Assembly: GCF_019393635.1 (NCBI RefSeq)
Contig: NC_057864.1
Coordinates: forward strand, 494,467,216-494,531,215
DNA from: Dromiciops gliroides
Lineage: Eukaryota > Chordata > Mammalia > Microbiotheria > Microbiotheriidae
Reading direction: 5' to 3'
Length of the DNA stretch: 64,000 nt
Shown in pieces: positions 38,196 through 42,067 of this stretch. Both the position numbers and the translations under genes were made by a program. Positions within the stretch are counted from its first letter, which is position 1. Each line of letters opens with the position of its first letter. A model generated the notes under the pieces. That model made no database searches and was not told the origin of the DNA. It saw nothing but the letters and a program-made list of their open reading frames with translations.

Positions 38196-38314
38196 AAGCC
38201 GTGAGCAGTGATGGCCAGATTCCCGTCTATTTTTATAAGGATCATTTAAATGGGTTTGTTTGCCCGACTTCACGGAAACAAGCCAGACTGCGAACACAGG
38301 CAGACTTCTGGATG
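38196..38314 (+). pseudogene. GANP-like block 1
   Basis: Acceptor tgtgtttctgcag, then phase-1 entry and 39 residues, donor ATG|GTGAGG. This is the best conserved block apart from the last; the frame is open. Confidence 0.82.
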
Positions 38315-38484
38315 GTGAGGACGTTCGGGTCTCTGACAAAACAACTATCCTAACACAGATCAGGTCAGCCCTATGGATGGAGGCCTGACAGCCCCTGCAA
38401 AGCCGACTTGTTACCTCCCCGTGGAGTGGAGAAAGTGTGGAATCCCAAGGAGCTAACTTTCTTTTATCTTCCTGTATTTCTCAG

Positions 38485-38536
38485 GACGACAGAGTTTTAG
38501 GTGGAAAGCATTTATTCAGATGGTCCAACCCCACTG
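38485..38536 (+). pseudogene. GANP-like block 2
   Basis: Acceptor tgtatttctcag; DDRVLGGKHLFRWSNPT against human REGRLAIKPFHPSAN. Similarity is weak; it is placed by order, phase 0 entry and a GTAACA donor. Confidence 0.5.
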
Positions 38537-38729
38537 GTAACAAGGTGGCCGTCCAGCATCTGCTTGGGGGTGGGCAGCCCCTTGTTAGGAAGCTTTTCTC
38601 ACACTTCCAGAATGCATCACTCCCGTCGAGGTTTCTCTTTGTCACCCCCTGGATGGGTTTTGGCTAAAAAGGGTTTGGTCTGGGTTTCCAGGTCAGCCAG
38701 GGAATGCCCTCTGCCCCTGCCCAGCAGAG

Positions 38730-38835
38730 CCAACAAGGCCATCAGTAGGCCCTGTCCTGCTGACATCTGCAATAAGAAAGGCCTCCCAGAGCACCTACTG
38801 ACCAGCATTCAGGTAGAGAAGGAAGCAGGAAGTGA
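38730..38835 (+). pseudogene. GANP-like block 3
   Basis: HLLTSIQVEKEAGSE aligns with human ELLAQ...LEKEENKR. The 5' edge is unclear (38692, 38725 or 38730). A strong donor GTGAGT at 38832 would break the frame with block 4; the weaker GTACTT at 38836 keeps it. Confidence 0.55.
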
Positions 38836-39380
38836 GTACTTGGCAAATCCGCCAGAGCCAGGCTTGACCCTGGAAGCATGTGAAGCCCGCAGAGTTTACT
38901 TTCTCCAGGGAGAATGCCTGGAATCTGGCAGGGGGTTGGGCTGAGCTCGGAAGGGACTGAGATGTGAGGGAGAAACGGCCTGGGCAGGAAAGGTAGGGAG
39001 AGTGGGCGGTGAGGTGGCTCTTGGGCCTCAAGTGCAGAGTGCCCAAGAGTGGCTGTCACCCGCTTGAGGGAGGAGCCTGGATCAGCTTGTCCCTGAGTGG
39101 GGAGGGGGGAGCGGCTGCAGAGGCAGGACCCAGAGGAAGGGGTTCATGGGGCCCGGGTTGGGTTGTCGCCTCTGGGGTCCTTTGTGCCCCCTGCCCAGAG
39201 TTTATTCTGGTAAGTCCCTAAATAGAGCTCGTCTGTTTTGACAGACATGGGCCAAGCAATTCATCATCATCCGGCAGCCAGTCTATCGTGGCCTGGCCTC
39301 GCTGTGGCTCTCCAGAGGCTCCGTTTGGGAACGTCTACGTGGGAGGACTGCCATTCAGCCCCCGACCCCTTCACTTGCAG

Positions 39381-39515
39381 GTCTGAGGACCAGCTGTGCT
39401 TCTGGCTGCACAAAGACCCCCACTGCCTGGCTGTTTCCCTTCCTCCCCCCACCCAAATCCTGTGTCTCGGTCCATTGTGGTGGTGATGCGGTTCTCTGTG
39501 CTGGCCAGGATGCAG
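39381..39515 (+). pseudogene. GANP-like block 4, frame change inside
   Basis: Acceptor ttcacttgcag; SEDQLCFWLHKDPHCLAVSL in one frame, then the similarity (SIVVVMRFSV against human TIEPVMKTSV) continues in another frame after a C-rich run near 39440-39460. Donor CAG|GTAGGG. Confidence 0.6.
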
Positions 39516-39765
39516 GTAGGGACGTGGCTCTCCCTCCAGAGTCCCCTGAGTGGGCAGGTCTGCAGGTTCTGTGAGCCCTCGGGGGGGGGGGGGGGAGAAC
39601 CTCCTGGGTCTCTTTAAAAAGGGCCTTCACTGTGGTGGTTCTGGGCCTGGTCATCAGCTCCTTCTTGTTCTTCCACTGCAGGCACTTGGTACTGTCCTGG
39701 ATCGCGAGTGCCCACCCAGGGCATGACATTTCAATGGCTTCTGGAGAAGCAAACAGGAGGGCATT

Positions 39766-39908
39766 TATTTTTTTAAATTAATAAAGTATTTTATTTTTTT
39801 TTCCATTACATGTAAAGATAGTTCTCAACTTTTGTTTATACAAGCTTTACAATTTTAGATTTTTCTCCCTCCCTCCCCCCTCCCCTAGACAGCAGGTAAT
39901 CTGATATA

Positions 39909-39978
<70 letters not shown>

Positions 39979-41392
39979 TAATAACATTAAACATATTTCT
40001 GTATTAGTCATGTTATAAGAGAAAAAATCAGAGCAATGATGAAAAACCTCAAAATAGAAAAAAACAACAGCACCCAAAACAAAAGAAATAGTATGGTTCA
40101 ATCAGCATCTATACTCCACAGTTCTTTCTTTCTTTCTTTTTCTTGGATTTGGAGATCCTCTTCTATCATGAGTTCCCTGGAACTCTTCTGTACCATTGCA
40201 TTGGTGAGAAGGATATAGTCCATCACAGTAGGTCAACACTCAGTGTTGATGATACTGTGTACAATGTTCTTCTGGTTCTGCTCATCTCACTCATCATCAG
40301 CTCACGTAAGACCCTCCAGGTTTCTCTGAACTCCTCCTGCTCATCGTTTCTTACAGCACAATAGTATTCCATTGTATTCATATACCACAACTTGTCCAGC
40401 CATTCCCCAATGGATGGGCACCCCCTCAACTTCCAATTCCTTGCCACCACGTAAAGAGCAGCTATAAATATTTTTGTACATGTGGGTCCCTTTCCCCTTT
40501 CCATGATCTCTTTGGGAAAAAGACCCAAAAGTGGTATTGCTGGGTCAAAGGGTATGCACAGCTTTATCGCCCTTTGGGCATAATTCCAAATTGCTCTCCA
40601 GAATGGTTGGGTCAGTTCACAGCTCCACCAACAATGCATGAGTGTTCCAATTTTCCCACAGCTTCTCCAACATTTATTATTTTCCTTTTTTGTCATTTTA
40701 GCCAATCTGATAGGTGTCAGGTGGTACCTCAGAGTTGTTTTTATTTGCATCTCTCTAATCATTAGAGATTTAGAGCATTTTTTCATATGGGGATAGATAG
40801 CTTTGGTTTCTTCATCAGAAAACTGCCTGTTCATATCCTTTGACCATTTCTCAATTGGGGAATGACTTGGGTTCTTATAAATTTGATTTACTTCCCTATA
40901 TATTTTAGAGATGAGACCTTTATCAGAAGTGCTGGCCTCAAAAATTGTTTCCCAGCTTTCTGCCTCCCTTCTAATTTTGGATGCATTGCTTCTGTTTGTA
41001 CAAAAATTTTTTAATTTAATGTCATCAAAATCATCCATTTTGCATTTTATAATATACTCTATCTCGTTTGGTCATAAACTGTTTTCCTTTCCAAAGATCT
41101 GATAAGTAGACTATTCCTTTCTCTCCTAATTTACCTATGGTATCACCTCTCATGTCTAAATCATGTATCCATTTTGACCTTATTTTAGTATAAGGTGTAA
41201 GATGTTGGTCTAAGCCTAATTTCTGCCATACTATCTTCCAGTTTTCCCAGCAGTTTTTGTCAAATACTGAGTTCCTATCCCAGAAGCTGGAGTCTTTGGG
41301 TTTATCAAACACTACATTACTAGTGTCATTGACTACTGCATTTCCTGAGCCTAGCCTATTCCATTGATCTACCACCCTATTAGGAGGGCGTT
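39766..41392 (-). mobile_element. 5'-truncated L1 in the last intron of the GANP-like copy
   Basis: The minus strand holds the C-terminal third of ORF2 ([72 protein letters not shown]) and the 3' UTR. The frame is continuous over 271 codons from 41038; a frame change near 41035 separates it from a further ORF2 piece up to 41423. Fairly young compared with other L1 pieces here. Confidence 0.92.
39908..39980. repeat. (TA)n(CA)n microsatellite inside the L1 3' UTR
   Basis: About 27 TA units then CA units, expanded within the L1 3' UTR 'atataggtta' region. Confidence 0.95.
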
Positions 41393-41923
41393 TATAAAGC
41401 ACTTTGCACAGTGCTCGACACACATGCTCAAGGGTCTTTTTGTCTGATCTTCACATAACTGGTGTGGTTCCTTTTGGCAAAGAGGCAGGGTTCAAATGAG
41501 GGAAACTTGGCTCCCCTAACATCGATACTGCTCATCAGCCCCCAGCCCAAAGGCCCTCAGTGAAGGTCTGAATTCTACTCATTCCTCTCTCTGGCCCGAG
41601 GTAGTCAGTCCACTCTGTAAACAAACATAGGAAGTGTAGTACGTGTTCTGCTGTGTTAGGGGCTTGTAGCTAAGCCGGGTAGCAAAGCAACGGGGGAGTC
41701 CAATCTAGGACTGGGAGGCCCCGTGAAAGGGGCCTCAGGTTTTGTCTCAGCCTCTGCCCTCCCACTTGCTCTGGTATCGAGGTGCCCAACACAGCCATCC
41801 TCAGCTCCCAGTGCTGGGGCTGCCCATCCTGTCCCCGACACCACAATGGCCTTGTCCCAGGATCTTCGTGCCAAGCTCCCTCTTGCTCATTTGTGTCTCC
41901 TGCCCCCAACAGGCCCCCAACAG

Positions 41924-42067
41924 GAAGACACGGCCTCAGTGGAGAAGGCTGACCCTTCTCTGTTGAAAAGACTGAAACACTTAGAAAAACTAATTCAAAC
42001 CACCAAGGAGGAAGATGAGATTTACAAGTTCCACTTGTCCACCCTGAGAGACCTGGGGGACCTCTGA
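41924..42067 (+). pseudogene. GANP-like block 5 with stop codon
   Basis: Acceptor cccccaacag, with an alternative start 11 bases upstream. RLKHLEKLIQTTKEEDE is nearly collinear with human RLKHLERLIRSSREEEV; it ends DLGDL and TGA at 42065-42067. Confidence 0.85.

Follow-up and report, generated by a model that had tools for sequence, protein, structure and literature searches.

The TREX-2 complex, which serves mRNA export, has GANP as its scaffold, and the MCM3 acetylase comes from the same gene (PMC3121959). This acetylase, MCM3AP, is a shorter protein of the GANP locus that lacks the N-terminal part; its promoter is internal, lying in intron 16 of the human gene, and the protein starts in exon 17 of 29 (PMC3121959). 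The passage on GANP paralogues in PMC12216326 mentions one alone, the distant LENG8, whose PCI fold shows about 20% identity. We found no GANP duplicate described in marsupials in the literature searched, which comprised titles and the beginnings of abstracts, most subscription journals lying outside it. Here we describe a GANP-like block in the genome of the marsupial Dromiciops gliroides (monito del monte), within the 64,000-nucleotide stretch C4:494467216-494531215, the whole of which we call the window. Along the window, exons that we take to belong to C21orf58 are followed by the block, both on the plus strand, then by an antisense YBEY gene, and then by MCM3AP, again on the plus strand. 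Comparison of sequences makes it probable that an ancient second copy of MCM3AP left its 3' end here as the block (exons A, M, C and D); this copy would have been protein-coding for a long time and inactivated later.

The GANP-like block and its exons

Two open reading frames (ORFs) in the block matched the Pfam family PF16769 (MCM3AP_GANP) above its curated cut-off of 25 bits. The ORF at 38147-38353 matched positions 501-541 of the 715 in the profile (E 1.7e-9, 36.9 bits), and the ORF at 41660-42064 matched positions 644-715, which is the profile end (E 2.3e-7, 29.9 bits); in a search of the genome the same two matches scored 33.0 and 28.8 bits. A spliced profile alignment indicated two additional blocks, with cores at 38780-38833 (score 20.1) and 39382-39420 (score 21.1), and neither score was reached when the interval was shuffled 1000 times by mononucleotides, or in any of 84 other pieces of the window. 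Another segment of this alignment, 41253-41353, was discarded because it lies close to an interspersed repeat. In the plus frames of 26.5-43.4 kb, a profile built from 110 GANP tails found only the exon A and exon D blocks above the inclusion threshold. Whole-protein searches with 7 GANPs and with 124 proteins, filtered, returned the genuine 5' exons, both blocks, low-complexity matches and weak rows, of which the best in the low-complexity-filtered search (E 8.6e-5) was one pangolin protein lying antisense on the first exon of YBEY. In the PDB neither the tail (one match, E 0.49) nor the N-terminal exon had a relative. An earlier reading of this DNA, made from the letters alone (the sequence-only reading), had proposed similarity to the GANP C-terminus on the plus strand, and the two Pfam matches with the two further significant cores bear it out.

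We then compared the block with the genuine MCM3AP end, which lies at C4:494551646-494554987 on the same chromosome, about 46 kb downstream. The genuine tail exons translate letter for letter to the C-terminus of P0015, the Dromiciops gliroides GANP in the database (1992 amino acids). Because the genuine gene has its own tail, the block is a second copy and not a displaced end. At a threshold of E <= 0.001, PF16769 matched the Dromiciops genome 16 times: twelve matches fall within the genuine gene (494541550-494554974), two within the copy in the window, and two near 490.5 Mb on the minus strand. The sequence-only reading had offered the presence of the GANP C-terminus at two loci, the block and the distal MCM3AP end, as a test of duplication, and both were found, on one chromosome.

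The last four exons of the genuine gene encode residues 1778-1822, 1823-1890, 1891-1940 and 1941-1992, starting in phase 1 and joining in phases 2, 2 and 0. The exons of the copy (Table 1) start in phases 1, 2, 2 and 0, as in the genuine gene, with the end of exon C out of phase, and AG or GT is present at all seven copy splice sites that correspond to those of the genuine last four exons. Exon A has 133 nt in both genes and 55% identity to GANP residues 1775-1814. Exon M has 225 nt versus 204 in the genuine gene and is in frame and open; its acceptor was chosen by phase among several AGs. The second half of exon C could not be aligned to the genuine exon. Exon D, with 41% identity, has 48 codons including the stop versus 53, and its TGA at 42065-42067 is the stop that had already been assigned to the block. 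The acceptor of exon D is an 11-bp tandem duplicate (41902-41923), which offers two AG acceptors 11 bases apart and an alternative start at 41913.

Five blocks in GANP order, separated by introns, had been counted from the letters alone. The order and the introns hold, but the genuine gene has a single exon between A and C, so the copy has four exons; nothing in the genuine gene corresponds to the supposed block at 38485, and the exon that matches in phase is exon M. Of the splice sites then named, 39515 and 41924 are likely the homologous donor and acceptor, whereas the homologous donor of exon A falls after 38328 and not after 38314. Introns kept, a parent elsewhere and a disabling change (see below) are all found here, as in duplicated, intron-bearing pseudogenes. 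Taken together, these comparisons support the view that the block arose by duplication of the MCM3AP 3' end at the genomic level, introns included. A partial genomic duplication was what the sequence-only reading had suggested; beyond it, the copy appears ancient, strongly diverged and formerly constrained, and a third GANP-like locus lies 4 Mb away.

Age, past selection and present state of the copy

We asked how well the copy keeps residues on which GANPs agree, using 124 tail columns from 32 GANPs, 25 of them invariant. Of the 25 invariant residues the copy keeps 22, lacking a W, an F and an M. At the unambiguous columns its retention is 15/19 where two kinds of residue occur and 9/26 where at least three occur (22/25 vs 9/26, Fisher p 9.9e-5). 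With exons A and D alone the counts are 15/17 invariant versus 7/20 tolerant (p 0.0012). Neutral simulations were started from observed GANPs, with 3000 runs each and a transition and CpG bias of our own choice, and were halted at 62, 72 and 80 identities when started from platypus and at 72 from wombat. Only 0, 0.1 and 1.2% of the platypus runs, and 0.17% of the wombat runs, reached 22/25; runs without a stop made up 2.4, 5.8 and 8.6%, and 4.5%, respectively. A second set of simulations gave 22/25 in 0 to 1.3% of the runs that made up the top-scoring 5%; a score as high as that of the copy was reached by 0 to 2.4% of the whole set.

Between the copy and the genuine gene, pS was 0.651, pN 0.31, dS 1.52 and dN 0.41 (106 codons), so that synonymous sites are near saturation. 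The ratio pN/pS was 0.48 (bootstrap 0.35-0.64), to which the genuine branch also contributes, and dN itself is therefore the useful number: it is 0.41 for both branches together, against about 0.76 (dS/2) expected on the own branch of a copy that had always been neutral. If the omega of the genuine branch is guessed at 0.15 to 0.35, that of the copy itself would be 0.38 to 0.18. The low dN and the retained invariant residues point to a long protein-level constraint, and the copy thus seems to have been under protein-level selection for a long time. Its former role, to judge from the kept residues, was probably that of a GANP-like C-terminal region within a larger protein.

The copy is identical to the Dromiciops tail at 57 of 124 residues (46%), and to the wombat and platypus tails at 62/124 each. 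At 9 columns with a marsupial-derived residue it never shows that residue, showing the older residue at 2 and another at 7. It carries 1 of 10 Dromiciops-specific residues and none of 8 eutherian-derived ones, and at 8 columns that separate mammals from sauropsids it is mammalian at 3, sauropsid at 1 and different at 4. In the tree the copy falls with mammals against sauropsids (100/99), outside the marsupial clade (100/98), and next to monotremes with weak support (89/76). A recent duplication of the local MCM3AP end is ruled out by the synonymous divergence and the single Dromiciops-specific residue. These data suggest that the duplication likely predates the split of living marsupials.

The copy looks damaged today. 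Exon C has 135 nt versus 151 in the genuine gene, with a TGA at 39484-39486, and owing to its length a transcript spliced at donor 39515 would enter exon D out of frame. The homologous donors of exon A (GG/GTCTCT, phase 2) and exon M (GA/GTACTT) are weak, matching the consensus at 5/9 and 4/9 positions, versus 8/9 for their genuine counterparts. Stronger donors (both 7/9) occur 14 bases upstream in exon A, after 38314, and 4 nt upstream in exon M (GTGAGT, 38831), out of phase with the homologous next exons, and 38831 joins in frame to an acceptor at 39245. Neither AATAAA nor any of seven variants was found in the 1.29 kb between the copy's stop and YBEY, whereas in the genuine MCM3AP an AATAAA follows the stop at base 105. 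Between C21orf58 and the copy we found no convincing 5' MCM3AP exon (FG region, SAC3 domain or CID), and none of 24 candidate database proteins (84-268 amino acids) matched the spliced tail. Neither convincing upstream domains nor an uninterrupted frame through the homologous splice sites, which a functional GANP gene would have, was found. An enumeration of splice models passed 180 intact ones, 12 of them with the homologous exon C acceptor and none with donor 39515; since so many pass the same search, one intact model is weak evidence of a gene. The present-day short tail protein that had been envisaged is accordingly not supported, in view of exon C (out of frame in the homologous model), of the lack of a convincing 5' exon and poly(A) motif, and of the protein candidates. 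The copy does nothing demonstrable now, and most likely it has no function.

We propose that the YBEY-MCM3AP unit was duplicated in tandem before living marsupials diverged, and that the first YBEY and the 5' part of the copy were then lost; the copy's place between C21orf58 and YBEY, its orientation and its position tail to tail with YBEY would follow from these events. The copy would have served long as protein-coding sequence, either within a larger GANP-like protein or as a C-terminal product like MCM3AP (the shortened product that we take to be Map80), and would have been inactivated later.

Several points weigh against this proposal. The copy sits on a long branch (1.56 vs a median of 0.076), and approximately unbiased (AU) tests rejected no alternative, with p values of 0.089 for the copy as sister of marsupials, 0.084 of Dromiciops, 0.246 of Australidelphia and 0.102 of therians, so that the dating depends on the synonymous divergence and on the counts of residues. 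The selection and age figures come from 106-124 codons, the blocks were found by similarity, a search that favours kept residues, and the simulations depend on our choice of substitution bias. Since phase guided the choice among the possible exon M acceptors, the seven of seven splice sites are partly built in. A 200-codon reading exists via a weak donor after 39469 and the acceptor giving the start at 41913, and the death of the copy is to that extent not proved. No remnant of a first YBEY was found. A possible decayed remnant of the exon preceding A lies at 35818-35892, with a score of 8.6 that was reached by 2 of 1000 shuffles; among 41 other natural pieces only that of the corresponding exon at the far locus reached 8.6, and two more scored 7.8. 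Four GANP stretches were tried to obtain it and a TGA stands beside it, and we regard it as a weak lead that is not counted as found.

A third GANP-like locus and the rival explanations

The locus 4 Mb away (Table 1) contains exons of the SAC3 region and of the C-terminal part, whose aligned stretches include three in-frame stops. It is identical to Dromiciops GANP at 256 of 461 residues (dS 1.92 and dN 0.21 against the genuine gene, 198 codons) and keeps 172/227 invariant residues versus 23/56 at tolerant columns. Its position in the tree is on the side of the sauropsids (96/96), though mammals are favoured by 7 of the 12 columns that separate the two groups, and AU tests rejected none of the placements with mammals (p 0.254), marsupials (0.422), therians (0.39), monotremes (0.103) or Dromiciops (0.345). 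It has an exon A of its own, and within about 14 kb beyond that exon no convincing exon M, C or D was found. A search of the genome for SAC3 gave 10 matches, 4 in MCM3AP, 3 at the far locus, 2 at one place on C6 and 1 on C3, the last two places being presumably SAC3D1 and LENG8. The search for copies of YBEY or C21orf58 near the far locus gave one match (E 0.006, 27% identity), which we did not take as real. Also near this locus are two 3.7-kb elements, 96% similar and in opposite orientation, with terminal repeats of about 370 bp (C4:490484642, plus strand; 490527877, minus strand).

Could the window tail and the far locus be two pieces of one second GANP gene that was split by an inversion? 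They lie on opposite strands of one chromosome, with 5' and middle exons at the far locus and the tail in the window, both are very old by dS, and exons M, C and D, which the window has, were not convincingly found in the roughly 14 kb beyond the far exon A. A simple inversion, with the far locus complementing the tail, is spoken against by the far exon A, since exon A would then have had to be doubled; the sauropsid placement of the far locus also argues against it, though the mammal-sauropsid columns lean the other way. We regard this explanation as rather unlikely.

It is quite improbable that the tail is a living short gene, in which transcription from other 5' exons still yields a protein of about 100-200 residues and shifted splice sites bypass the damage in exon C. 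Exons A, M and D are open, pN/pS is well below 1, exon A (donor 38314) joins exon D (41924) in frame to give 103 residues from an ATG at 38147, and there is the 200-codon model. The 180 intact models, the weak homologous donors, the want of a convincing 5' exon and of a poly(A) motif, and the 24 unmatched protein candidates tell against such a gene. The idea that the copy interferes with YBEY by convergent transcription is not supported, as we found nothing in its favour; the 3' ends are indeed about 1.3 kb apart, as had been estimated, with stops at 42065-42067 and next to 43353.

We find it very doubtful that the block is a plain neutral fragment, a partial duplication that was dead on arrival and has drifted since. 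The 5' truncation, the damaged exon C and the long branch would suit such a fragment, but dN is well under the neutral expectation, retention is concentrated at invariant residues, and 28-39 indels of frameshift size would be expected in 637 nt (at an assumed rate), versus one exon out of frame. An assembly error or a collapsed haplotype, in favour of which we found nothing, is hardly credible, since the copy differs from the genuine tail at 67/124 residues and both stand in one 497-Mb contig with different flanks.

On the preferred reading, an ancient and long-coding second copy, a wider proposal may be added, which we hold tentatively and short of even confidence: early mammals may have had, next to the gene supposed to be single, a second working GANP gene ('MCM3AP2'), selected during most of more than 100 million years, of which the window tail and the far locus would be the remains in Dromiciops, unless they are those of two such genes, and of which a living version possibly exists in other marsupials.

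Neighbouring genes and comparison with known systems

The other features of the window are listed with the copy in Table 1. Pfam matches to NupH_GANP and SAC3_GANP fall in the MCM3AP exons of the window. P0015 is 100% identical to the window in the first two exons and at 57271-57420, and its mismatches in the other exons occur where the alignment overruns exon ends. Searches with P0015 and with a human YBEY sequence confirmed an MCM3AP start at 53147, on the strand of the copy and beyond the antisense YBEY, whose stop directly follows its last exon end. We assign the exons with DUF4587 to C21orf58; the match in the ORF 26330-26605 falls below the Pfam cut-off, and further exons that we take to be likely parts of this gene lie at 18433 and 20350.

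Table 1. Positions of the copy, of neighbouring genes and of the far locus (window positions, unless C4 is given)
Feature	Position	Strand	Remarks
Copy exon A	38196..38328	+	homologous to exon for Dromiciops GANP residues 1778-1822; starts in phase 1
Copy exon M	38611..38835	+	homologous to exon for residues 1823-1890; only core 38780-38833 alignable
Copy exon C	39381..39515	+	homologous to exon for residues 1891-1940; core 39382-39420
Copy exon D, last coding exon	41924..42067	+	homologous to residues 1941-1992; phase 0
Interspersed repeat in last intron of copy	39778..40826	.	self-comparison: similar to 20970-21785 and 32085-32653
Far GANP-like locus	C4:490514224-490548006	-	exons for GANP residues 629-936, 1345-1380, 1688-1774, 1777-1814
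MCM3AP genuine, first exons	53147-54358, 54441-54671, 56922-, 57271-57420	+	tblastn with P0015; ends approximate
MCM3AP genuine, further exons	59140-, 60428-, 62560-, 63247-63531	+	tblastn with P0015; ends approximate
MCM3AP genuine, extent	53147..63531, continuing beyond the window to C4:494554987	+	genome matches, tail exons
YBEY, four exons	48337-48074, 45945-45796, 44326-44255, 43439-43353	-	tblastn; ends approximate
C21orf58 exons upstream of copy	23990..26605	+	Pfam DUF4587 in ORF 23990-24817

The repeat in the last intron of the copy, which we take to be L1-like, carries an antisense open frame in the ORF list (40226-41071). Another open frame, at 29739-30059, has an ILGDFNA motif that resembles the endonuclease of a non-LTR retrotransposon. 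Two tandem arrays lie between the YBEY and MCM3AP starts, a long C/T-rich one at 51681-52447 with a 109-bp unit and a perfect 8-bp one of 16 copies at 50499-50627. Rfam gave no match in the window at gathering scores.

If the copy was an old, constrained and close paralogue, mammals had a second GANP that was lost at least in this lineage; if it is no more than a broken duplicate, it is still a well-preserved fossil of a gene and a reason for caution in annotating this interval. Compared with MCM3AP/GANP, whose tail is its source, the copy has the same PF16769 domain, exon order, phases and final stop, but it has no convincing trace upstream of exon A, 46% identity to Dromiciops GANP and an exon C out of frame. 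A C-terminal GANP product without the N-terminal half is a known arrangement, to go by what the cited account tells of the short MCM3AP product; the copy differs in that it begins at the fourth exon from the end, whereas the human product starts in exon 17 of 29. LENG8, as far as the paralogue passage describes it, and the copy are both relatives within the GANP family, but LENG8 is related in the PCI fold and ends there, whereas the copy is related only in the PF16769 end.

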